From a virus: 64,000 nucleotides of DNA. The translations under genes were made by a program, and so were the position numbers. Each line of letters begins with the position of its first letter. Positions within the stretch are counted from its first letter, which is position 1. The notes beneath the pieces were generated by a model. That model made no database searches. It had not been told where the DNA came from and was given only the letters and a program-made list of their open reading frames with translations. Shown here in pieces: positions 1,784 to 61,974 of this stretch. The stretch covers positions 1-64,000 of the IMG/VR virus record IMGVR_UViG_3300026521_000226. One strand, written 5' to 3'.

Positions 1784-2244
1784 TGGAATTAAAATATTTT
1801 TATAAAATAGAAAATGACAGACTTATAAAAGGTTCAGGGTTTAAAATCCCTGAAAATTGTATTGAATATAATAAAAAAAATCCACCTGTTGAATTTATTG
1901 AATTGCAAAATAAAATAAATAAGATAAAAGAATTTGAAAATAAATTTAAAGAACTTAAAAAAAATAGAGACTTAAAAGTTGGTTCTATAGTTGTAGAATT
2001 ATCAACAGGCGAAAAGCTTAATGGTGATGAATTATCACAAACAAGATTGAGCAGAGCCTTGAATGGGCTAATTGACGATGAAGAAATATCTTGGATAGAT
2101 TCAAAAAATGAAACAATAAAATTAAATAAAGACAAAATAATAAAAGCGTTAAGATTGGCTGGCGAACAACAAACAAGCATATTTGTTGAATACAATAATC
2201 TAAGAAATAAATTGAACGAAGAATATAAAAATGTTAAAGTATAG
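1783..2244 (+). CDS. Putative tail-fibre assembly/attachment protein, second copy
   Basis: A 153-aa paralogue of the 502-1014 product. The first ~30 residues are nearly identical (KYFYKIENDRLIKGSGFKIP); the rest is charged and helical, and then diverges. It is coupled to the fibre-tip gene just upstream, as the first copy is. It overlaps the following DUF1353-type gene by 14 bases. The role is inferred from the duplicated fibre-partner arrangement. Confidence 0.5.
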   Translation: MELKYFYKIENDRLIKGSGFKIPENCIEYNKKNPPVEFIELQNKINKIKEFENKFKELKKNRDLKVGSIVVELSTGEKLNGDELSQTRLSRALNGLIDDEEISWIDSKNETIKLNKDKIIKALRLAGEQQTSIFVEYNNLRNKLNEEYKNVKV

Positions 2245-2563
2245 TGATTTTGTTGTTAATCCAATGAGAAACCATAGATATAAAGTTGTTAAAGATTTGT
2301 ATTTTTTAGACATAAAAGTACCAAAAGGATACAAAACTAACGGAGGAAATATACCAAGAATATTTTGGTCAATACTTCCTCCAAATGATAGCGAAATGTT
2401 GCCACTATATATAATTCATGATTACCTTTGTGATTTAGAGAATTATAAAAAAGCTGATGAATATCTTCTTATAGCTGGAAAAGAACTTCATGTATCAAAA
2501 TGGAAATTAAAAATTATCCATCTCGCTGTTAGAATTTGGCATAAAATTAGATATAATTCATAA
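2231..2563 (+). CDS. DUF1353-family phage protein
   Basis: 110 aa. The central stretch VPKGYKTNGGNIPRIFW, followed by PPNDSE, HDYLCD and Lys/Ala-rich helices, matches the DUF1353 family common in phage lysis and tail regions. The family has conserved Asp/His residues (here HDYL) but no firmly assigned function. It lies directly before the holin, spanin-like and endolysin genes, so a link to lysis or tail assembly is possible. Confidence 0.7.
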   Translation: MLKYSDFVVNPMRNHRYKVVKDLYFLDIKVPKGYKTNGGNIPRIFWSILPPNDSEMLPLYIIHDYLCDLENYKKADEYLLIAGKELHVSKWKLKIIHLAVRIWHKIRYNS

Positions 2564-2584
2564 AAAAGTACAAAGGATAAAACA

Positions 2585-3055
2585 ATGTTTGGTATAGCAA
2601 CAATGCTTGAAGCTGCAGGTTCTAAATTATTAAGTAAATTAATTAACACTGGATCTGAAAAAGCTAAAGAATTTATAGAGAAAAAAACAGGTGTAAACTT
2701 AGATAAAGAACCAAGTAATGAAGATGTAAAAAAGCTTGTTGAATTTGAGAAGAAAAATTCAGAAGAAATTCAGAAAAGGTTAGAAAGTATTTTAAAAGAT
2801 AAACAAAATGCAAGAGAAATGAATGTTGAGTTATCTAATAGTAATGGTAGTTGGTTAATAAAAAACACTGGTTCTATTATAGCATTAACAACAATTATTG
2901 CTGTATTCGCTTTATTTGGCTTATTATTACATGGTGATTTAAGTATTGAAAACCCAAATGTATCTTTAATCTGTGGATATGCTGGTGGATATGTAATGGC
3001 TATTCTATCATTCTATTTCGGCTCTTCAAAAACTGAAGCTGATAAGGTTAGATAA
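2585..3055 (+). CDS. Holin (GTA 3TM-holin-like)
   Basis: 156 aa. An N-terminal amphipathic, charged part is followed by two clear hydrophobic segments at about residues 95-118 and 126-145. It ends in YFGSSKTEADK, a signature I associate with the GTA_holin_3TM family. Holins make holes in the inner membrane so that the endolysin can reach the cell wall. The next two genes encode a membrane-anchored coiled coil and an M15 peptidase, which makes this a lysis cassette. The stop codon overlaps the next start. Confidence 0.7.
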   Translation: MFGIATMLEAAGSKLLSKLINTGSEKAKEFIEKKTGVNLDKEPSNEDVKKLVEFEKKNSEEIQKRLESILKDKQNAREMNVELSNSNGSWLIKNTGSIIALTTIIAVFALFGLLLHGDLSIENPNVSLICGYAGGYVMAILSFYFGSSKTEADKVR

Positions 3056-3543
3056 TGGAATGGGGTGTAATAGAATGGACATCCTTGGTACTCGCAGGAA
3101 CAACAATTAGTGGTATTCTTGGAAAGGCATATCTTAATATTGTAAAGTCAAATGTTCATACTTCTGAAAAAATAGAGAATGGATTTGATAAATTAAATGA
3201 GATAGAAAAAACTACTTCAAGAGAACTTCATGATTTAAAAATAAGGTTGAGCAATAAGGCAGATAAAATACAAACATTAGAAACAATGTTGTTTGATTAT
3301 TTAAAAAAACATGAAGCTGATAAAATATATGTAAAAAAAGATATAATAGAACCTAAGATGGAAAATTTACATAAAAATCAAACAATGATATATGAAGATT
3401 TAAAAGATTTTAGAGATGATTTTAAAAAGTCTGTAGCAAAAATAACTGGTGGACTTGAAAAACATATTGAAACAGATATGCAATTTCAAAAAGATATGCT
3501 TGTTGAACTTAAAAATATAGCGCAAGGTAAAAACAATGGGTAA
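3055..3543 (+). CDS. Membrane-anchored coiled-coil protein, possible inner-membrane spanin
   Basis: 162 aa. A single hydrophobic segment lies at about residues 5-28, followed by a long charged helical region with heptad-like spacing to the C-terminus. This is the expected topology of an Rz-type inner-membrane spanin, and it lies between holin and endolysin. No lipoprotein partner (Rz1) is evident in the overlapping frames, so the assignment is topological only. Confidence 0.45.
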   Translation: MEWGVIEWTSLVLAGTTISGILGKAYLNIVKSNVHTSEKIENGFDKLNEIEKTTSRELHDLKIRLSNKADKIQTLETMLFDYLKKHEADKIYVKKDIIEPKMENLHKNQTMIYEDLKDFRDDFKKSVAKITGGLEKHIETDMQFQKDMLVELKNIAQGKNNG

Positions 3544-17404: not shown

Positions 17405-17980
17405 ATGGAAGAATGGGAAAAATTATTTCAACAAAGAAATAATATAACATATACAGCATCTGGGCATGATGGTACAGCTCCTATTTTTAAGGTTTTAGAT
17501 GTACAGGGAACTGAAAAAGTTAAACCTGTTTTTGGATTAACAGAAGGTATAAATACAAATATAGATAATTCTCAAAACCAAATAAAACAATTTAAACTTC
17601 CAAACGGAAATACAGCATTTTCAATGGACAAGGATTATGCTATGCAGAATAAATATGCTATGCTTGATTCAAAAGGAAATCCTGTATTAACAGAAGAAGG
17701 ATATAAAGCTGGATTTACTGGAATAGACAAAGATGGAAACCTAATTGGCACAAGTGAAAAGTCTTGGTTTCAACAAAATAAAGATGGAATAAACACTGGG
17801 ATTGCAGCAGGACAATTAGGTCTTGGGATTGCAGGATTTCTTGAAAATAGGAAAACAGCAAAAGCTCAGAGAGGTATGCTTGAGGCTCAGAGATCATTAC
17901 TTAATGAACAATTATCTGAGGCAAAAGCAGAATATTCAAGAGTAAGTAATCTTAGAAAAAAAATAACAGCCTCTTATTAA
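17405..17980 (+). CDS. Unknown virion protein
   Basis: 191 aa. The middle is Gly- and Asp-rich (KDGNLIG, SKGNPVLTEEGY). A hydrophobic Gly/Ala-rich stretch lies near residues 132-146, followed by a C-terminal coiled coil with many Ala/Arg/Leu. Small proteins with a membrane-active stretch plus coiled coil precede the internal core proteins in podoviruses (compare T7 gp14). The similarity is positional, not by motif. Confidence 0.4.
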   Translation: MEEWEKLFQQRNNITYTASGHDGTAPIFKVLDVQGTEKVKPVFGLTEGINTNIDNSQNQIKQFKLPNGNTAFSMDKDYAMQNKYAMLDSKGNPVLTEEGYKAGFTGIDKDGNLIGTSEKSWFQQNKDGINTGIAAGQLGLGIAGFLENRKTAKAQRGMLEAQRSLLNEQLSEAKAEYSRVSNLRKKITASY

Positions 17981-20363: not shown

Positions 20364-23300
20364 ATGGGATCATATGAAGATAAATACAGAACCAAATACT
20401 TAACAACAAATAGTTTATTAGAACAGTATGAAAAAGAATATATTGACCCTGATAAAGCAATGGTTGAAGGGTTATATAAAACTGGTGTAAAAAAAGTTGA
20501 TGATAGAGAGAAAATGGCAAATAAAATGGATGAAATATCTGATTCTGTTTTAGGTGAAAAATTAATTGAAGAAAGAGCATATTCGTCTGACGACAAAATG
20601 GTAACACAAGACAATAACACATATTTACAACAATTAGATGATGGTTCTTTTATTACAAGACAAAAGAGTGAATCTAAATTAAATTCAAGAGATGAGCAAG
20701 GAAATCTTGATTATAATATGTGGAAAAATCCATTATATAAAAAAGAGGAAGATAAAAATAATTTAGACAATAATTCATTTACACAAGCATATATAAATTC
20801 TAAAGCATCAAATAGAGAAATGATTACTGAGCAGATTGCAAAAGAAGTAAAAGCAAAACAGATATTGTTAGAAAATGAACAAGATCCTGAAAGAAGAGAA
20901 ATTATTAAAAATGACATAGATGTTCTACAAGCAACATTATTTAACCCAGATGCTGCTCAAAATTACGACAACTATATAACTGACAACATGAAGAAAGCTG
21001 ATATTGTTAGCGCTATTGAACAAAGTGACGATTTCCAAAAAATAAAAGATCCAAGTGAAAAAAACTTTTTAATAAACTTCTTTGAAAAAGCTAAAGATAG
21101 TGTATTTGATCCAAATAAAAAAGATCCATTCACATATGTTCTTATGGTTGAAAAACCAGATGGTTCTGAAGAGTTGAAAGTAGGTTATGCTAACGATGGT
21201 GGTGTATTTCAGAGATACAAAAATCAAGGTATTAAATTCAGAGTAATTGGATTACACCAAGGAAAAGATGCTTTAGAAGTGGAACAAAAAGTTCATTATT
21301 TGTTGAAGAAAAATGGAATAGCTTCAAACGTAGATCCATCTTTTGGTTCTGGACACACAGAAGTATACCAAACAGATTTATTTGATAAATATCATGAGGA
21401 ATTTGGAGATAAAGTAGCTGAAGCTGACAAATCATTTCAATCAGCTCAAATGATGACTCAATATCAAAAATACCAAAAAGGTATTCACAAATATCATGAC
21501 ACAATGGGATTTGCTTGGAATTTGGTAAAAACAGGTCTTGCAGGTGTTGATAGTTTACTTTCTGGTGCAGCAGCAACAATTCTTGATTCGACAGTTGTTA
21601 ATTACACAGATAGACAAAATGCTAATTCTATGTTAGGTCAATTTTCAAATATGCTTCATAGAAGAAATGAGCAAAGTGGGTACATTTGGGGTATAGATAC
21701 AACTACTGCTCAAAACGCAAGCAAAGGAATACATCAAGCGTTTGCTGACTTCAACAGAGGAAATATAGGTTCTGGTTTTATAAATATATTTAAAAGTTTT
21801 CAAGCTGTACCTGAACTGATAGCAGGATCATTGGCTTATGTCGGTACTGCTATGAAAATAGCAAAAGTAGGTAAAGCCTTAGGAAGTTCAAATGATATGT
21901 TAAATACTATACTTGGACTTACTGCTATTGAAGCCAATCATGATATAAATATGGCTTTAAAATATAATAATGGACAAGATATCGGAAATGAAAAAAAAGC
22001 AGCTATAATTATGGGTCAATTTGTAAATCAAGCAATACAAATGGGTGCTTTAAATGCAGTATTAAAACAAGGAAAATTCTTTGCTAAGTCAAAAGATGGA
22101 GAAATTATTCCTCTTGATAAAATTAAAGCATTAGATGAGCAAACGTATGGAAGAACGATTACAAGAGCAATATATAAACCTGCTGGAATAGTAGCGTTAG
22201 GAGCATTAGAAGAAGGACCTGCTGAATTCATAGACACAGTTGCTCACGAATTACTACAAAAATCTGGTACTGAACAATACAAAAATATGTCAAATGAAGA
22301 TTTATACAAAAAAGTACTTCCTGATGCAATAGAAGCAGGAGTATTTGGCGCCATGATGGGATCAACAATGGTATCTCATAGAGCTATAGGTGAAGCAATG
22401 GTGCCTTTTAGTGAAACTATGCATAGTATGTTTTACACAGAAGAGTACCAAAGTGATACACTTAGAAGACATATTCAATCTATGACTGAGGAAGAGAGAA
22501 ATCAGTTAGCTGAAAATCTTAAATTCTCAACAGAACAAATCGGTACAACGTACAAAGAACAAGAATCAATGATAAAATCACTCCAAAATGGAGATGTTGA
22601 TTCAGTTGTTGAAAATCTAATCAAACATTATAAAGTAAATATTTCTGATATTGAAGGTACGTCTAAAAATGATCTGAGAAAATCAGAATATATGAAACAT
22701 TTCTCAACAAAAATGCTTAGCCAAATAATGGTGGATTTAACAAAGTCACCTGAACTTATGAATCTGACTTTTAATAATGCAACATTAACAGGAAATACAT
22801 TAACAAATGAACTAAGCAAAAACAAAGAATTACTTGCAGAAATAAGAAAACAAATACCTAATATAGATTCTAATTTAGCAAATATAGTACCAAATGAGAT
22901 TGATGATCAACAAGCAATAGAACATATAATTGAATATATAACTAAAACTGAAGATTCAACAAAATTCAACAATATTATGAAACTGATAACATCTGTGCAA
23001 GAAAACACTCAAGATGAACGTGTCAAAAGTTCAATGAGAAGAGTAAATGCAAGTATATTATCAGATATATTTGGTACTACAATTAAAGGAAATGAGGCAT
23101 TAGGAAAATTAAAACAATACATAAATGGTAGGATTAGAGTAAATTTAAAAGATGAATTAGACAAATCACACAAAACCATTCAAATATTAAAAACAGCAGA
23201 GCAATATAACATTGGAGCACCAAAGATTAAAAAAACAGTATCACCTAAAGAAAATGCTGCTAAAAAACAAATGTATGATGGCATTGCTAAAAATATACAA

Positions 23301-24545
23301 ACAAATATACAAACAAAATTAACTGATAAAATATATAACAAAGATAAAAATATATCGTTTAATTTATTTGATAAAATAAAAAAACTATCTGAAGATACTG
23401 CAAACAAAAAAATAGACATTGAGTCAGATTTACATTTTGAAAATATACTAAAAGATATAATTAGTCAATCAATGCCAAAAAATGTATTAACTAATAAAAA
23501 TTTTACACAAGAATTCAAAAAAAACTTATCAAACAATTTATTGTCAACAGGAATTTTAGCTGATTTAACAAAAGAAGAAAAACAACTTATAGAAGATTCG
23601 ATAAATGAAATAAATAATAGTGAAATTCAAAAAATTCAAGATAGTTTAAAAATAACTGATGATAATAAAATTGAATCAGAACCACAAGAACAATACAACA
23701 AAGAAAAAGAATTAACAGATTTAATAGATCAATATAAATCTAAAAAGTTACCTTTTGGTTCTGAAGTGAATAAAATAAAAGAATTACTTCCACAATTAGA
23801 TACTGGTACTTTAGAAAGAATATATAATGAACGTAAAGATGATATACCATCAAAAATTAAACGAGAAATAGCAAAAGAACTAAGAAATAGAGAAAGAGGA
23901 AAAGCACTATTAAGTTCTGCTATGTTAGATGCATTAGGCAAATCAAGTGTAAGCATTGATTTTACAAAAGAAAAACCTAATAGTATTATAGCTTATATAG
24001 AAACATCACTATATTCTGGAGAACCAGATGTAGATGAACTTTATAAAGCAATAAATGCATTAGAAGATAAAGCTAAAGAAGAAGAAAATGATAAAAAAAG
24101 AAAAGCATTAGAAGGTAAAATAAATGAATTAAAATCAAAAATAAAGAATTTTGAAGATAGTCAAGTTAAGGAAAATATAAAATCTCAAATGAAGAATGAA
24201 AATTCTGCAATTAGAGAAACAATCAGATTCGTTGATGATTTTAAGAAATACTTCAAAAATAATGATTTAGACTACAAAAAGCTTACAGAATATATAAATT
24301 CTAATGAAGTTGGAAGTTTAGATGAGTTGTTAGCACAAACAGGTTTAGAAGTTGAATTGCAGAACCAAATAGATGAGCTTAGAAAGTTTATCGAGAAATA
24401 TAACAAAGATAATGAAAAAGTTGATATACTTACGCAACAAATGAAAGATTTAAACAAAAGAAGTTTATTTGCTTATATTTCAAATACAAATAATGAATTA
24501 AGTGAAGAAGATAGAAAAACAGCAGAAGAAATCTGTGGAATATGA
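20364..24545 (+). CDS. Giant virion protein with GIY-YIG-like nuclease domain
   Basis: 1393 aa. Residues ~255-345 fit the GIY-YIG/T5orf172-type fold. A TYVLMVEK strand (Y258) and LKVGYA (G274) are followed by R284 in FQRYKN, E305/E307 in ALEVEQKVHYLL, and a GHTEVYQTD ending (E333). A region with several hydrophobic Gly/Ala-rich segments follows at about 375-680 and could cross a membrane. The second half is coiled coil. It lies 12 bases upstream of the RNA-polymerase-like gene. I read it as the N-terminal part of a split N4-type vRNAP, possibly delivering a nuclease. Catalytic activity is unproven. Confidence 0.6.
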   Translation: MGSYEDKYRTKYLTTNSLLEQYEKEYIDPDKAMVEGLYKTGVKKVDDREKMANKMDEISDSVLGEKLIEERAYSSDDKMVTQDNNTYLQQLDDGSFITRQKSESKLNSRDEQGNLDYNMWKNPLYKKEEDKNNLDNNSFTQAYINSKASNREMITEQIAKEVKAKQILLENEQDPERREIIKNDIDVLQATLFNPDAAQNYDNYITDNMKKADIVSAIEQSDDFQKIKDPSEKNFLINFFEKAKDSVFDPNKKDPFTYVLMVEKPDGSEELKVGYANDGGVFQRYKNQGIKFRVIGLHQGKDALEVEQKVHYLLKKNGIASNVDPSFGSGHTEVYQTDLFDKYHEEFGDKVAEADKSFQSAQMMTQYQKYQKGIHKYHDTMGFAWNLVKTGLAGVDSLLSGAAATILDSTVVNYTDRQNANSMLGQFSNMLHRRNEQSGYIWGIDTTTAQNASKGIHQAFADFNRGNIGSGFINIFKSFQAVPELIAGSLAYVGTAMKIAKVGKALGSSNDMLNTILGLTAIEANHDINMALKYNNGQDIGNEKKAAIIMGQFVNQAIQMGALNAVLKQGKFFAKSKDGEIIPLDKIKALDEQTYGRTITRAIYKPAGIVALGALEEGPAEFIDTVAHELLQKSGTEQYKNMSNEDLYKKVLPDAIEAGVFGAMMGSTMVSHRAIGEAMVPFSETMHSMFYTEEYQSDTLRRHIQSMTEEERNQLAENLKFSTEQIGTTYKEQESMIKSLQNGDVDSVVENLIKHYKVNISDIEGTSKNDLRKSEYMKHFSTKMLSQIMVDLTKSPELMNLTFNNATLTGNTLTNELSKNKELLAEIRKQIPNIDSNLANIVPNEIDDQQAIEHIIEYITKTEDSTKFNNIMKLITSVQENTQDERVKSSMRRVNASILSDIFGTTIKGNEALGKLKQYINGRIRVNLKDELDKSHKTIQILKTAEQYNIGAPKIKKTVSPKENAAKKQMYDGIAKNIQTNIQTKLTDKIYNKDKNISFNLFDKIKKLSEDTANKKIDIESDLHFENILKDIISQSMPKNVLTNKNFTQEFKKNLSNNLLSTGILADLTKEEKQLIEDSINEINNSEIQKIQDSLKITDDNKIESEPQEQYNKEKELTDLIDQYKSKKLPFGSEVNKIKELLPQLDTGTLERIYNERKDDIPSKIKREIAKELRNRERGKALLSSAMLDALGKSSVSIDFTKEKPNSIIAYIETSLYSGEPDVDELYKAINALEDKAKEEENDKKRKALEGKINELKSKIKNFEDSQVKENIKSQMKNENSAIRETIRFVDDFKKYFKNNDLDYKKLTEYINSNEVGSLDELLAQTGLEVELQNQIDELRKFIEKYNKDNEKVDILTQQMKDLNKRSLFAYISNTNNELSEEDRKTAEEICGI

Positions 24546-24557
24546 AGGAGAAAATAA

Positions 24558-27500
24558 ATGAGCACTTGTGTAGATATAGTTAGTAATTTACTTTCACAAA
24601 TGAAAGATATAAAATTTGAAGATAGATACAAAGGTACCTCTTCAGATCCAAGGAAAATAACAAATAAAGAATTAATTGGAATAATGAATGGTTTTTTCAA
24701 CAAAAAGTATTCAGATGAACAACTGAAAGAACATTGGGATGGTATAGAATCAACGTTTTCTCAAATTAAAATGTCAACCTTAAGAAAAATTGTTAATGGT
24801 ATTTTTAATAAAGAATTACTTCAAGAACAAAAAATCGAATATAGCGAAGATTATGGAAAAGATGTAAGTGAATTATTAAAACAACTTAATGGATCGGATC
24901 CAAGATTGCTTTCGATAGCAGTGCATCAACTATTCGGTACTATAAGTGAAGTACACAATGTTGTTACGAAAAATATAAAAGCAAGTGTTAGAGAGAAAAT
25001 AAAAGATAAAGAAACAGGTATGTACCATCTGAACTTTAATCAATATGCAAAAGTTATAGGTAAATTGCTTTTTCAGTCGTATGGTAAAAAACCTGAAAAT
25101 ATTGGAGATGAGAAATTTATAAAAATTGGTACTGAAATTTTAAATAAATTATCTGACGCTGGATATATAAAAATTAAAGAATCCTCAGAACCAGAATATA
25201 GAATAGCATTAAGTCAAGCAAGGCAAGAACATGATACAGATAAATATTTGGGTGAAGATTATGAACATTCAAATACGATAAAAGTAAAAAAAGTGTTTAT
25301 GCTTGATAACAACAAATTTTCACCATTATTCATTAAATCCATTTTAGAACCAAATAGTGTTAAAGATGATATAAATAAATTAGATTCACTTATTAACACA
25401 GCAACTATACAAAATGATTTTGGAGGACGAACACAAATTGAATATATTAAAACAGATGATGAAAATGTAAAATATAACGAACTTTCAGATGAACAAAAGC
25501 AATATCTTCAAAACAAAATAACACTTAAATATTTTTCAAAAATAAACAAAATAATTATTCCACAAAATATTACACACATGAGAAAACACTCAATTATGGA
25601 AGATGATAATGTAGATGGTATATCAACGGAAGAAAAATTAAAAAAAGAATCAGATATGGCACTTACAGGAATAATTGAACAAGCTGTAAATCAAATTGAA
25701 AAAAAAGCATATTATATAGATGAGGATTTATTACAAACATTGACTCCATTCGTAAGAGATTTGTATGATATAAAGCAAAAAGAAGGAGAATTTAATTACT
25801 TTACGTTTATAAATAATTCTGGTGTTAAAGAATTTTTAGGTCTTGAAAATTATGAAGTAACTAATTTAACATTAAGCGAAATTGAGTCAAAATCTGGGTC
25901 TGATAGAACCAAATTAGATAACTTCCTCCAGATGGTATCAGCATTTGTTGATGAGATAGAAGAATTTGAAAAAGAAAAAGAAAAAAAATTTGATTTTGAA
26001 AATGACACATTGAATAATGAATTTTTCATAGGAAAATTTAGAGGTAGGAATGCAAGAACATATTTAACAGAAATAAGCTTTAATCCTGAAACTGATAAGC
26101 ATTTTACAAGAAAATTCACAAATGTCACAAAAGATGGTGTTGAAATAAACTTATTAGACAAAAATAATAAATTAACAATAGAAGCAGCTTATGTATTTAC
26201 TCATTTGTTACATGAAGTACTTGATGTAAAAGGTTCTGAAAATAAATTTATTAAAGCATTTATTGATAAAAATCTTGAATCTCTTCCAGAACAATTTGAA
26301 GAAGGTTCATTTGAATATTATTTATTTGGCTCTTTATCAGCAATGATAGGATTAGACAATAAGAAATTAGACATAAACAATATTAATAGTATAAGAACTG
26401 AAATCGAACTTATGATGGCTAACGATAAAATAAATACTCAAACAAGAGAAAAATATATGAGTAAATTAACATCAATAAAAATGATTCAGATGCTTAAATT
26501 TGCAAGAGAGTATAATAAATATAAAGAAACAGGTGTATTTAAAACAAAAACTGCACCAGAACTTGATGCAAATTCATCAGGTATTATGATTAAAATTATG
26601 CAAGCACACAACTCTGGCTCTAAAAAAGCAGAAGAAGTATTGTATAGATTTGGTACTATACCAAGAAAAAACAAATATATAGATAAATCAACAGAAGGAC
26701 AACCTGGTGGATATTTAGCAGGTCCATATGAACTTATTATGGAAAAAATGGATAATATGTTCAATTTAAAAAGTACCAAAGAGAAAACTACAAATAAATT
26801 TGACAACATTGGAAATAAAGTTATTAATCTTAGTGGTGTCCAAAAAATACCTGAAAAACATAAAAGAAAAACAGATAAAGGCATAAGTGAAATATCTAAA
26901 GAAAATGTACTGTTAGCACAACAAATATGGAATGAATATAGTAATAAATTAGGTATAAGTAAAAGGGACTTAGCAAAATATCCAACAATGATTATTGGTG
27001 CATATAACATGGCTCCTACTGCAGCAGCAAAAGAAAATGTTGCAAAACCTATGTATGATGACATGAAAAAATTATGGTATAAAAATCCAGAATTATTTCA
27101 AGATTTTTTAAATTTGATTAATGCGAGTTTTAAAGAACATAAAATATTTAACAATACAGATATAAAACAATATTTAAATATTGAAAATTTAACAAAAGAC
27201 AAATTATCTGAATTATTAGTTAAACCTAAAGTTGAGGAAGATATTCAAAATATATTAAAAGAATCAATAGGTAATGTATTAGCATATACAACATATAATG
27301 AATTTACAGCAGGAATATTTGAAGAAGATAATGATTTAATGCAAGAAACTTGGAAAGATTTAAAAGAAGTGTATAGTGATGATAAGCAAATATATAAAGT
27401 TGCAGATATAAACTTATTAACTTCAAACGAAGATATAGATATAAATAAATTAGAATATATGTATGATGATAATAGATTTAATAATTCAAAAAACTATCTT

Positions 27501-28976
27501 CATTTAACAAAACAAGTAAATGTGTGGGATTCAAAAACTGAGACAACAATACTTAAAGATATACCAAATTTACCTACTTGGGCAGTATCATTGATACATG
27601 CATATGATGCACAGGCACTACATTTAGCAATGGTTAGATTTGAAGAAGAACTTAAAAATGATCCAGAATTTCAAAAATCAAATACATTAACAATTCATGA
27701 TGCAGTAATTATAAACCCAAAATTAGCACATAGATTTAAAGAAATATATAATCAAGCGTTATTTGAATTAAACAATAAATATGATAAACAAGTAATTTCT
27801 TTTGGTTCTTTTATGTTAAATATAAATAAAATGAGATATAGTAGATTATATTCAAAATTAAAAAAAGAATATAATGATGAAAATCCATATAAAAAAAATA
27901 GTGATGCTTACAACGAAGCAAACGAATATACAAAAAAAAGAATGGAAGAGATAGATTCGAGACTATCTAAATTTATAGAACATACCATATTTGAAAAAGC
28001 AGAAAAGAAATGGGTAGAAGCTGATAAGTATGCAAAAAATGCAAAAGAAATTGAAGAAGCGTTTCAAGAATTTGTAAAAAATAAAGATATGAAATCTGGT
28101 AACAATAATTATTTTAAAAATGAATTTAAAGATTTTGTTAAAAAAGAAATATTTAATAAAAAAAGAAAAGAATTAGCTGAAGGATATAACAATCAGATTA
28201 AAAATGAAATAAAGAAAATTTTAACTTCAGAACCAAATGTGGAAGATTTTGAGAACCAAGGATTTGAATCTAAAGAAGAAGCAGAATTATATTTAAAAAT
28301 TAAAAATAATAGAGATAAATTAATTGAACAACATAAAGAGAAATTAGAAACAGATCCTAAAAAATTTATGCAAATGAGTGGTAAAGTATTTGGAGATCCA
28401 CTTATTGAATATACACATGAAGTTGAGCAAGAAACATCCAAAGAACCAAATAGAGGATTTAGAAAAATACTTCATAAAAAAACATTAGAAGCATATCAAA
28501 ATATTTTAAATTCAGAACAAAACAAAATATCTGACATAATTAAAAATATTCTTGGTGACCAAACTGAAGCAAGCGATAAAAATGGTATTGATTTAAATAA
28601 ATTACAAAATTTAGATAAAATTGTAAAATATTTAAACGAGAATGGAAATGGATTTTATGATAATAAAAAAGCAATTGAAGAGTTAAAAAAATATATGTTT
28701 GTTGAGCCAAATAAAGTGATTAAATTTAATTCAGAATCAAATATGTCAATAAATCAAAATAAAGATCCAAATTATGATCAAGTAAAAGGGCTTGCACACA
28801 AATTATTATATTTACATACACTTAACACTATACACAATAATATAAATAACAAATCAGAACTAAGTGAAGAAGAAATAGATAAACATGTAGATAATTTGCA
28901 CGAATTTGCAAAAACACATACTGCTCAAGAAGTTATTGATAAAATCAATGAAGATACTTCAATATGCAAAAATTAA
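24558..28976 (+). CDS. Virion-associated single-subunit RNA polymerase (N4 vRNAP-like)
   Basis: 1472 aa. The three signature motifs of T7/N4-type RNA polymerases are visible in order. Motif A is PELDANSSG with D670; motif B is KRDLAKYPTMIIGAYN with R803, K807 and Y816; motif C is LTIHDAVI with H1047-D1048. The spacing D670 to D1048 (378 residues) is close to the 392 residues I recall for N4 vRNAP. The same motif A pattern (E-I/L-D-x3-S-G) occurs in the phage's other polymerase. It lies in the late virion block, so it is probably packaged and injected to transcribe early genes. Motif B has one extra residue between K and Y, and N rather than G after Y, so it is divergent. Confidence 0.72.
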   Translation: MSTCVDIVSNLLSQMKDIKFEDRYKGTSSDPRKITNKELIGIMNGFFNKKYSDEQLKEHWDGIESTFSQIKMSTLRKIVNGIFNKELLQEQKIEYSEDYGKDVSELLKQLNGSDPRLLSIAVHQLFGTISEVHNVVTKNIKASVREKIKDKETGMYHLNFNQYAKVIGKLLFQSYGKKPENIGDEKFIKIGTEILNKLSDAGYIKIKESSEPEYRIALSQARQEHDTDKYLGEDYEHSNTIKVKKVFMLDNNKFSPLFIKSILEPNSVKDDINKLDSLINTATIQNDFGGRTQIEYIKTDDENVKYNELSDEQKQYLQNKITLKYFSKINKIIIPQNITHMRKHSIMEDDNVDGISTEEKLKKESDMALTGIIEQAVNQIEKKAYYIDEDLLQTLTPFVRDLYDIKQKEGEFNYFTFINNSGVKEFLGLENYEVTNLTLSEIESKSGSDRTKLDNFLQMVSAFVDEIEEFEKEKEKKFDFENDTLNNEFFIGKFRGRNARTYLTEISFNPETDKHFTRKFTNVTKDGVEINLLDKNNKLTIEAAYVFTHLLHEVLDVKGSENKFIKAFIDKNLESLPEQFEEGSFEYYLFGSLSAMIGLDNKKLDINNINSIRTEIELMMANDKINTQTREKYMSKLTSIKMIQMLKFAREYNKYKETGVFKTKTAPELDANSSGIMIKIMQAHNSGSKKAEEVLYRFGTIPRKNKYIDKSTEGQPGGYLAGPYELIMEKMDNMFNLKSTKEKTTNKFDNIGNKVINLSGVQKIPEKHKRKTDKGISEISKENVLLAQQIWNEYSNKLGISKRDLAKYPTMIIGAYNMAPTAAAKENVAKPMYDDMKKLWYKNPELFQDFLNLINASFKEHKIFNNTDIKQYLNIENLTKDKLSELLVKPKVEEDIQNILKESIGNVLAYTTYNEFTAGIFEEDNDLMQETWKDLKEVYSDDKQIYKVADINLLTSNEDIDINKLEYMYDDNRFNNSKNYLHLTKQVNVWDSKTETTILKDIPNLPTWAVSLIHAYDAQALHLAMVRFEEELKNDPEFQKSNTLTIHDAVIINPKLAHRFKEIYNQALFELNNKYDKQVISFGSFMLNINKMRYSRLYSKLKKEYNDENPYKKNSDAYNEANEYTKKRMEEIDSRLSKFIEHTIFEKAEKKWVEADKYAKNAKEIEEAFQEFVKNKDMKSGNNNYFKNEFKDFVKKEIFNKKRKELAEGYNNQIKNEIKKILTSEPNVEDFENQGFESKEEAELYLKIKNNRDKLIEQHKEKLETDPKKFMQMSGKVFGDPLIEYTHEVEQETSKEPNRGFRKILHKKTLEAYQNILNSEQNKISDIIKNILGDQTEASDKNGIDLNKLQNLDKIVKYLNENGNGFYDNKKAIEELKKYMFVEPNKVIKFNSESNMSINQNKDPNYDQVKGLAHKLLYLHTLNTIHNNINNKSELSEEEIDKHVDNLHEFAKTHTAQEVIDKINEDTSICKN

Positions 28977-28991
28977 TCGAAGGAGGATCAA

Positions 28992-31598
28992 ATGAGTGAA
29001 TGTACTTTAGAAAATAAGTTTAAATATAAATATGTAGACAAATATGTATCTTTCCCAGATCCTATAAATGAGTCTATGGAAAGAATAAATAATTATACAG
29101 CAGATATAATCAAATCTGCTCCAATGATTAGGTTAAAAGATGTAGTGCTTGAAAAAGTAGATAAATTAGATGATAAACTTGAAGAAAGTATAAGCGCTTA
29201 TAAGTCAACAAAATCATATTTAAAAGACTTATCAGATTCACAATTATTTCAACAAGTTAGACACTATTTAAATAACTTTAAAAACGCAGACGACAATACA
29301 AGAAAAAGCAGATTATTAACACTCTACGATGAATATAGTAAAGAAAGAACTAAGATAGATGATACACAAGTAGGTGATTTAGACGAAAAATTAAAAAATA
29401 ATTTTACAACTGAAGAAATAGAAGATTTAGATAAAATATTTGCAAGAAGTGGAATATTTTCATTTATGCAAAAAGGTAGTGAGCATTTACTTGATGATAT
29501 AAAAACTAAAGATCCATTATCACTAATTGGTTCTATAACTACAGATCCAACAATAATTGAGTTAGGAAAACAATATGGAGATTATTTTATTACAGGTAAA
29601 TTAGTTGGCAAAACTCAAATACTTAATCAATCATTATCAACATTTACTGATGAAAAGAAATTACATATTAAACAAATAGCAACATTACAAGCATTATCAC
29701 ATGTGCCTAATTTACAAGATATAATGAAAAAATTAAATAAATTTCCTATCATAAAATCTGAATTATTAGCAACAGCAAAATCAATTGAAACTTTAAGCAA
29801 TGAATTATTCAGAAAAACAGGTGATGACAATTATATGGATATGAACTTAATAACAGATGTATATGAACATAACTATGAAAAATATCCACTAACATATGAA
29901 GAATTTAAAAAACTTGATACAAAAGAATGGCAAGTACTTAGAGAACCAACAAAAAACAGTTTAGGAATAAAATACAGAAAAGCTGATATTCAAAAAGTAG
30001 AAGGACTTGGTACCAACACATACTATATGCACAATCATATAGTTATTAGTGAAGAAATGAAAAATAAATTTGATATGACACCAGTTTCTCAAATGCCTAT
30101 GGGCAACAAATCACAAACATTGTATGTATTAACATTAACAACAGAAGAAAAAGAAAAATTAGGATTAGTTAAAAATCCAGCACATACCTTATATAGAAGT
30201 TTTAGTAGATACAAATTTATGCTCGATACTCAATTTATAAGAGATGATTTATTAAAAAACAACTCATATAAAGTAAATGTTGGAAATATGTCTGAAATCG
30301 AAAGTATGATCAAGGATGATAAACATCCTTGGTTCTTAAAATTAGATGACAACACAAAATTTGAAGATCTACCAGATAAAATAAAAAGAAAATATAAAAA
30401 AGTTGAAAATAAATCAAATATAGGTGGTTTTTCAGATAAGGTAGACTTGGTAAGAATTGATGTAGAGCCATGGCTAATGGGCTTCAATAAAGTAAGATTT
30501 GATAAAAAACATAAAACTATGAATAATGCTTTAAGAGTGCTTCAAAAATTAGTTCTTATGTCAAAAATAGGTATGATAATTCAGGCCCCTAAAAAACTTT
30601 TATTTGACTATACTTCAAATAATTTACTTCTATTAACAAAAGGCATACCACTTGGTTCTATAATTAAAGAAACAACAAAAGCAAGCAAAGGTTTAAAAGA
30701 ATTACAAGATTTACATGGTAAATTAATTCAAGCAAACATAAATGTTTGGGGGTATCCTGAAGAGAAAAGATATGTTAAAATCAGAGATAACATAAAAAAA
30801 CAATTAGAGAACCATAAATATAATTTTGCTTATTTTAATGGATTTCAACAATCATTATCTACTGATGTTATTTTAAAAGATTTTGACACTATTACAGGTC
30901 TTCATAATGATGTAAAAAATATAATTAAAAAATTTGTAAACAAAGCTAATAGTGAAGAATTGAATGCATTTGGGGAGATAGTTAAGAAGTTTATGAAAAG
31001 TGGTAATGGTGGAATTGATGGGTTAATGGTAAAATTAGCAAATATGGGCGAGACAGGAATGCTAAAACAATCGTTAAAAGATATAGCAGATTCAATGAAG
31101 AAAACAAGAAAAGATGAAGATGTTGCACAATATTTATCTAATCTATTTTATTCACCTGGTTCTGAAGTGACAAAAGCAGGTACAGCATTTATGCAATGGA
31201 CAGATACAGTACCAAGGATAATTCTATACCAACATTTAAGAAATAAAGGTATTAATGATACAGAAGCAGTACAACAAGCTATGGACACATTTATAGATTA
31301 TAGACCTAATATGCCTAAAGAGATACAATTTTTATCAGATACATTTATATCTCCATTCCCAGCATTTGCTATTAAAGCTCAAAAGGTTATTTGGAATTTA
31401 CTAAAAACAAAACCAGTATCATCAAGTATGCAATTATTTGCAGATCTAACTCAATCTCATTTATTTGGTGTTGATGTTAATAAATTAAATATCTTTGGTT
31501 CTAATGTATTTGAAAAAATATATAAAGATGAATTAATATCTCATCCACAGATGAATATATCAAATGCAGATGATTTTATTTATTGGTTAATGAAATAG
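28992..31598 (+). CDS. Large virion protein, probable C-terminal partner of the vRNAP
   Basis: 868 aa, helical, with no polymerase motif. Near the C-terminus it has FIDYRPNMPKEIQFLSDTFISPFPAF, resembling the DYxxxxPxxxRxLSDxxxxPF phrase I associate with the last domain of N4-type vRNAP and other ejection proteins. RBS GGAGG stands just upstream and it follows the polymerase gene by 15 bases. The likely role is anchoring or translocating the polymerase in the virion. It ends at the convergence with the - strand. Confidence 0.5.
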   Translation: MSECTLENKFKYKYVDKYVSFPDPINESMERINNYTADIIKSAPMIRLKDVVLEKVDKLDDKLEESISAYKSTKSYLKDLSDSQLFQQVRHYLNNFKNADDNTRKSRLLTLYDEYSKERTKIDDTQVGDLDEKLKNNFTTEEIEDLDKIFARSGIFSFMQKGSEHLLDDIKTKDPLSLIGSITTDPTIIELGKQYGDYFITGKLVGKTQILNQSLSTFTDEKKLHIKQIATLQALSHVPNLQDIMKKLNKFPIIKSELLATAKSIETLSNELFRKTGDDNYMDMNLITDVYEHNYEKYPLTYEEFKKLDTKEWQVLREPTKNSLGIKYRKADIQKVEGLGTNTYYMHNHIVISEEMKNKFDMTPVSQMPMGNKSQTLYVLTLTTEEKEKLGLVKNPAHTLYRSFSRYKFMLDTQFIRDDLLKNNSYKVNVGNMSEIESMIKDDKHPWFLKLDDNTKFEDLPDKIKRKYKKVENKSNIGGFSDKVDLVRIDVEPWLMGFNKVRFDKKHKTMNNALRVLQKLVLMSKIGMIIQAPKKLLFDYTSNNLLLLTKGIPLGSIIKETTKASKGLKELQDLHGKLIQANINVWGYPEEKRYVKIRDNIKKQLENHKYNFAYFNGFQQSLSTDVILKDFDTITGLHNDVKNIIKKFVNKANSEELNAFGEIVKKFMKSGNGGIDGLMVKLANMGETGMLKQSLKDIADSMKKTRKDEDVAQYLSNLFYSPGSEVTKAGTAFMQWTDTVPRIILYQHLRNKGINDTEAVQQAMDTFIDYRPNMPKEIQFLSDTFISPFPAFAIKAQKVIWNLLKTKPVSSSMQLFADLTQSHLFGVDVNKLNIFGSNVFEKIYKDELISHPQMNISNADDFIYWLMK

Positions 31599-59115: not shown

Positions 59116-61974
59116 TTACCCTATAAATAATCCTCCTTTTATATCCTCTGGTTTGATGTCCCCTTTATGAAGCTCATTAACCATCATCTCCACAAATAGA
59201 TCTACTTCTTGTTCAGTAGTCCATAATGAAGTTGATTTGTAAAGAGCCTTAATATATCCTTTAAGGAACTCTTTTCCATTTTTAACAACTTTTCCAAGTG
59301 CTGATTTGTAAGAGTTCCAGAACATATCAATATCTTCAGGAGACACCATAAATGCATCATGGATTGGAATCATTGATGCAAAGCTACTCTCAACCATATA
59401 TTGATTGATTGCAGTTCTTAGCACATATGAATCTAATCCATGTGAATAAGCAGCAATATGTCTAACACCAAAATATTCACTGCTTACTCTTTTCATGAAG
59501 AACTCAACTTTTCTACCTGTTACAGTAGTTTTTATATTTTGAATATCTTCATGACCTGTTTGAGTAACACCTGTTACTGCTGCTATCATACCATCAGACG
59601 CAGCATATGTAAATACTGCTTTGTTGATATGTTTAGTCATCTTAGTGAAGAAATCTCTAAGAGCAGCAGCTTCAGGCATTAACTCTTTAAATTTAGCAGT
59701 CCAAGAATCCCATCTTGGTTCTGAAACTTCAATTATTTCTTTGTCAAGACCGATAGATTCAAGTAATTTTCTACCAATCTTAACAAATCTAACTCTTCCA
59801 GAACCATATTGAAATGGAGTGTATGGTGCTTTTCCTGTTTTTCTAACACCAATTTCTTGGTTGATAGATAAACATTGATTATCATCAATATTTACACCAT
59901 TTACACTCCATTTCATTCCTTGACCCATAGCAGTATAAATATCATATGGTTTATCTTGTGTAGCAAAATCTACATTAAGAGAAGACCATTTCATACCACT
60001 TTTAATACCAAGTGAACATACTTGCATTGCAGTACCTGAAGCTTGTTGATCAATCTCCACTAAAATATTAGTAGGTTGACCTTTAATAGCTTTCCACATA
60101 CTATGTTTGTGAATTGCTATTAATATTTTAAGCTCAAGCTCTTCTTTTTGGTTCTCCCAAATTGAATGTTGTTGAGCTTTTGTAATAGCTTCTTTTTGAA
60201 GTTGTTTAATTTTAAATTCAACTTCATTTAATTCTTTCTCGTAATCAGAGATAATATTACCTAATATCTCTACTGATTTTTGAGAAAGAACTCTTGGTTC
60301 TGCACTACCAAACAGATGATTTCTAAATCCTGTTTGTAATGCAAGATATGCTCCTCCCTTAGCATATACTCTCAAGTTATCTGGTCCAAACTTGAATTGA
60401 GTAAAGAAGTATCCTTGTTTTTCAAAGATTTCGTTTACTCTTCTAATATCCTCTAAAGCATTTGCATGTGCTTTTTGAGCATCTTGAAGAGTAACTCTTA
60501 CTTCTTTACATTCTTTATCAAGATATACTAATTCTCCTGTTGATTTAAGAACAGGATTATTAGCATGAGAATGGAACTCAGTATGTTTAAGAACCATATC
60601 TCTAATTTCTCTTGATTCAGCTAAACCATCAACAAAAGAGTATTTAGTTTGGTTTAGATTATGTAAGAAAATCTTACCACCAATATTTAATGATGGTTTG
60701 AATTTCCACATAGATCCTTGCCAAACTCTTCTGTTTTCAGGATCAAGGTCTATTGTTTTACCTTCACTATCAACCTTAATTAATTTAACAGGTTTTTCAG
60801 TGAAGGCACTTCTTTTTTCAATAGTAAAGAAGCTTTCTAATTTACCTTTAAATGCTGGATGTTTAACAAATTCATTAACAAATGATTTGTTTAAACTACT
60901 AATATTAATAGTTTTAACTCCAATATTCTTAGTATTAGTAAAGATAATAGAACCTTTATCCTTACCATCTAATCCATACCATCTTACTTGTTTAAATAAT
61001 TCAAACAAAGTAAGACCAGCATCAATTAGATTTTCCATATGAGCTTTATCAGTCCAAACTGATGGATTATTTGGTACTGAATAAGCCCCTATAAAATAAC
61101 TCATAAATTCACTTCTTAGTGAAATTTCTTGAGCTTCTTCTTTTTCAAGAAGAATGGAAATAACAAAAGTGAATAATTCAGCAATATCATCTCTAATATT
61201 TAAAGATTGAATATATTTTGCTGATTTATTTTGTTTTACAGGTACAGCAATTTTATCAATTACTGCACCTTTAACAATTTCTTTAAATCTAAATGAACCA
61301 TCAATAAATGCATCAAATGTTTGAAGCACTGTTGGTTCTAACTTATTAGATACAAAGTCTAATACTTTTGTATCTTCATTTAAGTCTTGAACACCAATTA
61401 GTGCTTTAACAAACACATCAGCATCTACACTATCAAGTTCTTTAAATGACTTGATAGAACAAGCTTTTAAGAAGTCTTTTGCTGATTTACTTCTTAAATC
61501 TTTAGAAACTCTTGATTTTACAAGTTCTATTCTACTTGTATTTTCAAGAGTCTCTTTAATTTGTTCTTCTTTATTTTTATCTTCATCTTCAGAAGCAGCT
61601 ACACCAGCTATAAATGCTGCTGCAAATATAGCTTTAGCATTTTCAGCTACTTCCCTTTTTGAAGATTTTGGAGCTTCAATTGAAACTCCTTTAGTAGGAA
61701 TCATATCTCCTACTAATTTTAATAATCTGCTACCATTGATAGCAGATTGAGCAGACATTTCTGCTCTTTTTGCTGCTGCTGCAGCCATTTTTGCCGCAAT
61801 AGCAGCTTTTCTTGCTGCTTTTCTTTCAGCAGCTGATGCTCTAAGAGCATCTTTTAATTTTTCTGCTAAAGGAGCAGATATTTTAGCTCCTTTAATTTCT
61901 TTTACTTCTTTTACTCTTTTAGGAGCAAATGCTCCTAAAAATCTTATTCCATTTTTATTTACTAATTTTCTCAT
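59116..61974 (-). CDS. T7-like single-subunit RNA polymerase, middle/early
   Basis: 952 aa. Motif A VEIDQQASGTAMQ (D642); motif B VRKTGKAPYTPFQYGSG (R711, K715, Y723-G724: R-x3-K-x7-YG as in T7); motif C IPIHDAF (H872-D873). FKFGPDNLRVYAKGG near residue 535 fits the region before motif A. The first ~130 residues are Ala/Lys-rich helices not present in T7 RNAP, and the chain is ~70 residues longer. N4 makes its second polymerase from two subunits; here it is one chain. It would transcribe middle genes. Confidence 0.82.
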   Translation of the reverse strand: MRKLVNKNGIRFLGAFAPKRVKEVKEIKGAKISAPLAEKLKDALRASAAERKAARKAAIAAKMAAAAAKRAEMSAQSAINGSRLLKLVGDMIPTKGVSIEAPKSSKREVAENAKAIFAAAFIAGVAASEDEDKNKEEQIKETLENTSRIELVKSRVSKDLRSKSAKDFLKACSIKSFKELDSVDADVFVKALIGVQDLNEDTKVLDFVSNKLEPTVLQTFDAFIDGSFRFKEIVKGAVIDKIAVPVKQNKSAKYIQSLNIRDDIAELFTFVISILLEKEEAQEISLRSEFMSYFIGAYSVPNNPSVWTDKAHMENLIDAGLTLFELFKQVRWYGLDGKDKGSIIFTNTKNIGVKTINISSLNKSFVNEFVKHPAFKGKLESFFTIEKRSAFTEKPVKLIKVDSEGKTIDLDPENRRVWQGSMWKFKPSLNIGGKIFLHNLNQTKYSFVDGLAESREIRDMVLKHTEFHSHANNPVLKSTGELVYLDKECKEVRVTLQDAQKAHANALEDIRRVNEIFEKQGYFFTQFKFGPDNLRVYAKGGAYLALQTGFRNHLFGSAEPRVLSQKSVEILGNIISDYEKELNEVEFKIKQLQKEAITKAQQHSIWENQKEELELKILIAIHKHSMWKAIKGQPTNILVEIDQQASGTAMQVCSLGIKSGMKWSSLNVDFATQDKPYDIYTAMGQGMKWSVNGVNIDDNQCLSINQEIGVRKTGKAPYTPFQYGSGRVRFVKIGRKLLESIGLDKEIIEVSEPRWDSWTAKFKELMPEAAALRDFFTKMTKHINKAVFTYAASDGMIAAVTGVTQTGHEDIQNIKTTVTGRKVEFFMKRVSSEYFGVRHIAAYSHGLDSYVLRTAINQYMVESSFASMIPIHDAFMVSPEDIDMFWNSYKSALGKVVKNGKEFLKGYIKALYKSTSLWTTEQEVDLFVEMMVNELHKGDIKPEDIKGGLFIG

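Follow-up and report, generated by a model that had tools for sequence, protein, structure and literature searches.

Three genes for an N4-type virion RNA polymerase

The window analyzed here is a 64-kb stretch of a 71.8-kb virus record (IMG/VR IMGVR_UViG_3300026521_000226). At positions 20364 to 31598 it carries three adjacent open reading frames, P1, P2, and P3, of 1393, 1472, and 868 residues with gaps of 12 and 15 nucleotides, exactly as claimed in an original prediction made from the sequence alone (Table 1). That prediction had taken the three genes for a split virion RNA polymerase (vRNAP) of the type found in phage N4, and this reading was supported; by sequence comparison, P1 corresponds to the N-terminal domain (NTD), P2 to the RNA polymerase (RNAP) domain, and P3 to the C-terminal domain (CTD). 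The 3733 residues of the three chains contain only four cysteines, all no more than 4 residues from the ends that face a junction, a pattern that the prediction had not mentioned.

Table 1. Features at the split vRNAP locus (all on the + strand)
Feature	Position	Description	Evidence
191-residue gene	17405..17980	In place of N4 gp52; without cysteine	Gene order versus N4; cysteine count
P0	18053..20359	768 residues, without cysteine; upstream neighbor in place of N4 gp51 (periplasmic tunnel ejection protein)	Gene order versus N4; cysteine count
P1	20364..24545	1393 residues; predicted NTD chain of split vRNAP; single cysteine at 1391	Position ahead of RNAP chain; phmmer to NTD chain of G004, 3.7e-20
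T5orf172 (GIY-YIG-like) domain	21132..21377	P1 residues about 257-338	Pfam PF10544, 21.5 bits (cut-off 20), fragment scanned alone
Cysteine codon TGT	24534..24536	P1 C1391 of 1393 (third residue from end)	
Shine-Dalgarno-like AGGAG	24546..24550	Just ahead of ATG of P2	
P2	24558..28976	1472 residues; RNAP chain	Leave-window-out profile, hhalign, Foldseek
Cysteine codon TGT	24567..24569	P2 C4	
Motif T/DxxGR-like region	26049..26111	P2 N498-R518, catalytic R500	Alignments, profile-profile
Motif A	26565..26582	P2 DANSSG, D670	Alignments, profile-profile
Motif B	26964..27005	P2 R803/K807/Y816	Alignments, profile-profile
Motif C	27696..27701	P2 H1047-D1048	Alignments, profile
Cysteine codon TGC	28965..28967	P2 C1470 of 1472 (third residue from end)	
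Shine-Dalgarno-like AGGAGG	28981..28986	Just ahead of ATG of P3	
P3	28992..31598	868 residues; CTD chain (C2 subdomain)	phrog_2206, tblastn
Cysteine codon TGT	29001..29003	P3 C4	

P2 belongs to the single-subunit RNAPs, and its type is that of the N4 vRNAP. This identity rests on a family profile because direct single-sequence searches fail: searched alone, P2 matched nothing among Pfam and PHROG families, PDB sequences, or phage genomes, and when the lone sequence was compared with the N4 profile, the E value was only 0.034. An RNAP profile built from 10 relatives, leaving the window out, scored residues 443 to 1082 of P2 at 106.5 bits (independent E value, 7e-33), and the maximum among 200 shuffled controls was -2 bits. 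Profile-profile alignment (hhalign) of P2 with eight N4-like RNAPs gave 99.0% and an E value of 5e-18, pairing R500 with N4 R424, D670 with D559, and R803/K807 with R666/K670, and placing Y816 near Y678 with one extra residue; the N4 catalytic residues were taken from PMC2784036. The residues that had been assigned to motifs A, B, and C are all real. D670, R803, K807, and D1048 were invariant in both the 5-member and the 15-member alignments, Y816 was invariant in the 5-member one, and R500, in a fourth, previously overlooked motif (T/DxxGR), was invariant as well. Across 15 diverse P2 homologues, 17 columns were invariant, every catalytic one included.

Structure prediction, which had been put forward as a check against the N4 mini-vRNAP, agreed with this assignment. 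An AlphaFold model of P2 residues 360 to 1130 from a 15-row alignment had a predicted template modeling (TM) score of 0.58 and a mean predicted local distance difference test (pLDDT) value of 54, with about 70 to 78 in the palm region (an earlier 6-row model had reached a pLDDT of 34). The top three PDB matches of the model in Foldseek were all N4 mini-vRNAP (E value, 6e-3 to 2e-2; probability, 0.99 to 1.00; TM score, 0.37 to 0.39), and the next were T7 and mitochondrial RNAPs. Taken alone, the model would be modest evidence, but it agrees with the rest.

P3 is the vRNAP CTD. The chain, in which an end-domain phrase had been noted, matched PHROG 2206, "virion RNA polymerase," with its extreme C terminus at 6.9e-16 over profile positions 3102 to 3385 of 3406, and tblastn matched it to vRNAPs from the Alteromonas phages R22Y (4e-54) and PT11-V19 (3e-42). 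In position and size, P1 corresponds to the NTD, and it matched the separate NTD chain of one relative (Table 1), with no match to the NTD of N4 itself. In N4, the vRNAP consists of an NTD (residues 1 to 906), a 100-residue linker, the RNAP domain (1007 to 2101), a 23-residue linker, and the CTD (2124 to 3500) (PMC12633501); both cuts in the window correspond to these two flexible linkers. By homology, P1 to P3 are predicted to be packed in the virion. A GIY-YIG-like nuclease domain sits within an N-terminal chain that is predicted to be injected.

Among the closest known systems is N4 gp50, the Schitoviridae vRNAP (PHROG 2206; PDB 2PO4, 3C2P, and 9PNQ), with which P1 to P3 share the order NTD-RNAP-CTD, motifs T, A, B, and C, homology in the CTD, a position following gp52- and gp51-like ejection genes, and a near absence of cysteine. 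Unlike gp50, which is one 3500-residue chain with no cysteine and with an HExxH motif in the C1 subdomain of its CTD, the window encodes three chains with four junction cysteines, and HExxH was not found in P1 to P3, though nearly all relatives have one.

Cysteines at chain junctions of split vRNAPs

The window is not unique in having a split vRNAP, since at least 23 relatives have one in some form. Five patterns were found: NTD separate from RNAP-CTD; NTD-RNAP separate from CTD; RNAP, C1 (HExxH), and C2 all separate; RNAP-C1 separate from C2; and the window's own NTD, RNAP, and CTD, shared with G056 and G057. The start codons of some of the relatives' genes were placed at the nearest downstream ATG. 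Among the relatives are the Alteromonas phages AD45-P1 (NC_021532), PT11-V19 (OP751378), and R22Y (PP212876), which, like the window, have separate chains with one cysteine per junction-facing end; they differ from it in having two chains only, cut between RNAP and CTD in AD45-P1 and between NTD and RNAP in the other two. The two chains have 2495 and 1409 residues in AD45-P1 and 1000 and 2082 in PT11-V19.

Two splits have been published, in AD45-P1 and pSb-1, with gene-calling error or read-through given as the cause (PMC10654107). The AD45-P1 region (L102, 36624-48348) carries the remark "potential frameshift" and no coding sequence in its GenBank record; in fact it holds two intact genes and is a true split with a cysteine pair (C2493 of 2495 in the first chain, C4 in the second). 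None of the papers found comments on its cysteines. In pSb-1 (L103, 5194-15982), the vRNAP is annotated as three open reading frames whose frames run on past the breaks, an appearance that suggests frameshifts or errors of sequencing, and the three pieces contain no cysteine.

N4-like vRNAPs are known to be cysteine free (PMC2784036, PMC3715699, PMC3915230), which has been explained as a means of avoiding disulfides in the periplasm. The exception described here falls exactly where chains must be joined. For the window, the chance of its cysteine pattern under random placement is about 1.6e-10. In all, 24 phages with split vRNAPs (the window and the 23 relatives), with 31 junctions and 93,343 residues, were surveyed. 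A cysteine lay within 6 residues of the terminus at all 62 junction-facing ends versus none of the 48 outer ends, and 63 of the 67 cysteines in split vRNAPs were at junction-facing ends. Seven of the 31 junctions (from five records) and one half junction were found after the rule had been stated, and all obey it. Controls were likewise consistent: 20 distinct vRNAPs of unsplit relatives (64,745 residues) had no cysteine, nor had the ejection proteins encoded upstream of the vRNAP in 17 of 17 phages. No published report of terminal cysteines was found in a literature search conducted mostly without subscription journals. The rule offers a way to tell true splits from frameshifts and to infer chain order in multiprotein cargo.

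The crAss-like phages, which are the most abundant viruses of the human gut, also carry giant multichain virion RNAP cargo, and two of them, phi14:2 and crAss001, were compared. Their virion RNAP is of a polymerase type unrelated to that of P2, and no search made here showed homology between these proteins and P2. In these proteins, too, cysteines are almost confined to chain ends, those that face a junction. In phi14:2 (L249, g065 to g067), cysteines occur at C1797 of 1797 in the first chain, at C3 and C2179 of 2180 in the second, and at C3 in the third, with no other cysteine in 5,398 residues. In crAss001 (L247/L248), they occur at C2339 of 2341 in gp47, at C5, C1334, and C2404 of 2412 in gp50, and at C5 in gp49, which implies the chain order gp47-gp50-gp49. 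The gene for gp47 lies on the strand opposite to those for gp50 and gp49, so that a nucleotide-level junction artifact is excluded there. RNAP chains have been detected in virions by mass spectrometry in crAss001 (PMC10172136) and in phi14:2 (its record), and crAss001 virions contain disulfides between other proteins, of the tail and vertex (PMC10172136).

Proposed disulfide linkage of the chains and its alternatives

These patterns suggest that reversible disulfides hold the pieces of split vRNAPs together. In the mechanism that we favor, with a probability of roughly two in three, the three chains of the window are the domains of an N4-type vRNAP that are carried in the capsid and delivered into the host on ejection. 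Interchain disulfides would link them head to tail for this passage, and reduction of these bonds in the cytoplasm would then set the polymerase free. Each junction would pair one cysteine at the C terminus of the upstream chain with one at the N terminus of the downstream chain (P1 C1391 with P2 C4 and P2 C1470 with P3 C4). The bonds would form in the virion or in the oxidizing periplasm and would turn three polypeptides into one string, such that each following domain would be pulled in its turn through tail and periplasmic tunnel. Once in the reducing cytoplasm, the polymerase would be released both from the NTD, which is membrane associated, and from the CTD. Because the CTD autoinhibits RNAP in N4 (PMC12633501), reduction might turn on the enzyme as well. 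No thioredoxin- or DsbA-like CxxC gene was found when the window was scanned for one.

This mechanism bears on the question of how, in N4-like phages, a 3,500-residue enzyme passes a ~35-Å channel and two membranes and then turns active (PMC12633501), and crAss-like phages pose the same question of ejection. It predicts that, in the cultured phages AD45, PT11-V19, R22Y, phi14:2, and crAss001, the chains are linked without reductant and come apart with it. The broader proposal is that short-tailed phages generally use terminal cysteine pairs as a code for joining the separate chains of giant ejected proteins in series, through reducible disulfides, for passage of the envelope, with cytoplasmic reduction releasing and perhaps activating the polymerase. 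That such a code is common to N4-like and crAss-like lineages with unrelated virion RNAPs we consider an even proposition.

Several points weigh against the disulfide mechanism. The bond is predicted from sequence, and a chain with a single cysteine could form homodimers instead. Four split vRNAPs have one extra interior cysteine each, and G023 has a second terminal one. In crAss001, gp50 has an interior cysteine, and its C-terminal cysteine is the ninth residue from the end. Moreover, the P value of the rule (log10 P of about -145 under uniform placement, with relatedness ignored) overstates independence, because the 24 phages are related.

The strongest alternative, which we nevertheless regard as unlikely, accepts the split but has the cysteines act without a permanent chain-to-chain disulfide, through metal binding, mixed disulfides with a thiol partner from host or phage, or homodimers among virion copies. 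The evidence being confined to sequences, pairing of like with like is possible given several copies, and the N4 virion holds 4 ± 1 vRNAPs (PMC12633501). Yet cysteines stand on both sides of every junction and never at outer ends; therefore, the code is junction specific. Two cysteines alone would make a poor metal site, and the chain tails are otherwise dissimilar, cysteine being the only residue common to all.

Far less probable is that the split is an artifact of sequencing frameshift or misassembly, or is bridged by stop-codon read-through, as published for AD45-P1 and pSb-1 (PMC10654107). The frames of pSb-1 that run on past their breaks, the GenBank remark on AD45-P1, and the common frame that P1, P2, and P3 happen to share would fit such an origin. 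Against it, each downstream gene has a start codon, both window junctions have ribosome-binding-like sequences, the gaps at the junctions surveyed cover all three frames, with TAA (21), TAG (7), and TGA (3) as stops, the breaks fall at domain linkers, and split genes have the cysteine pair, whereas frameshifted and intact ones lack it. As explanations of the split, read-through and frameshift were both rejected.

It is equally improbable that the cysteines are by-products of nucleotide signals at gene overlaps (Shine-Dalgarno sequences, TGTTAATG, and the like) and not selected as amino acids. In several phages, the cysteine codon does adjoin a Shine-Dalgarno-like sequence or an overlapping stop and start; however, the ribosome-binding sequence in the window comes after the stop codon, TGT and TGC are both used, the downstream cysteine lies within the next gene, the equally tight P0/P1 junction has no cysteine, and the crAss001 partner genes occupy opposite strands. 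Finally, joining of the chains by a peptide bond through protein splicing or ligation, with the cysteines as remnants, is scarcely credible: cysteines at joining ends do resemble intein or native chemical ligation chemistry, but there is no intein-sized insert, every end is only a few residues away from a start or stop codon, the cysteine of the downstream chain is residue 3 to 6 and not 1 or 2, and PHROG and Pfam scans revealed no intein or ligase-like domain.

Variation among relatives and neighboring genes

On a 38-row tree, the split class changes at least 11 times, with at least 3 changes between split and unsplit and at least 3 at the NTD-RNAP boundary; this is a quick tree with long branches, that of the window among them. 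In the clade of G059 and G060, both are split with a cysteine pair, and the sister L242 and seven further members are unsplit and cysteine free. The G059/G060 junction falls in the linker between C1 and C2 and is flanked on either side by about 30 additional residues. A small gene ahead of the G059 vRNAP region (L230, near 6984) terminates in a stretch of masked bases. Three relatives encode the HExxH (zincin-like) C1 subdomain as a separate small chain bearing a cysteine at either end (L136, 11298-13232; L139, 5698-6780; L144, 11208-12500). In G028 (L143, 5018-11356), an extra 2112-residue chain with cysteines at both ends lies between the RNAP and CTD chains; no RNAP or C2 domain was recognized in it, only a late HExxH.

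The window also encodes a protein of a major head protein family (phrog_1357), an N4-gp56 capsid having been claimed, and a portal of the SU10/N4 type, closest to Alteromonas phage portals at about 37% identity (526 records). An N4-type portal, major capsid protein, and primase, together with the gene order, mark the virus as a Schitoviridae-like phage. No relatives were found in IMG/VR by pattern scans that used P2, P3, A1, or the portal alone.

A second single-subunit RNAP of 952 residues, in one chain, is encoded at 59116-61974 on the - strand (phrog_2051, RNA polymerase, 2.9e-9), with RKTGKAPYTPFQYGSG as motif B and IHDA as motif C. N4 RNAPII (gp15/gp16) resembles the split vRNAP in being a single-subunit-type RNAP in separate polypeptides, two in number (PMC4496689). 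It differs in being made in the cell and not ejected and in being cut within the RNAP domain. We know of no terminal-cysteine rule for RNAPII. The 952-residue RNAP is probably the counterpart of this two-chain enzyme; in N4, RNAPII is split and the vRNAP is fused, and in this phage the reverse is found.

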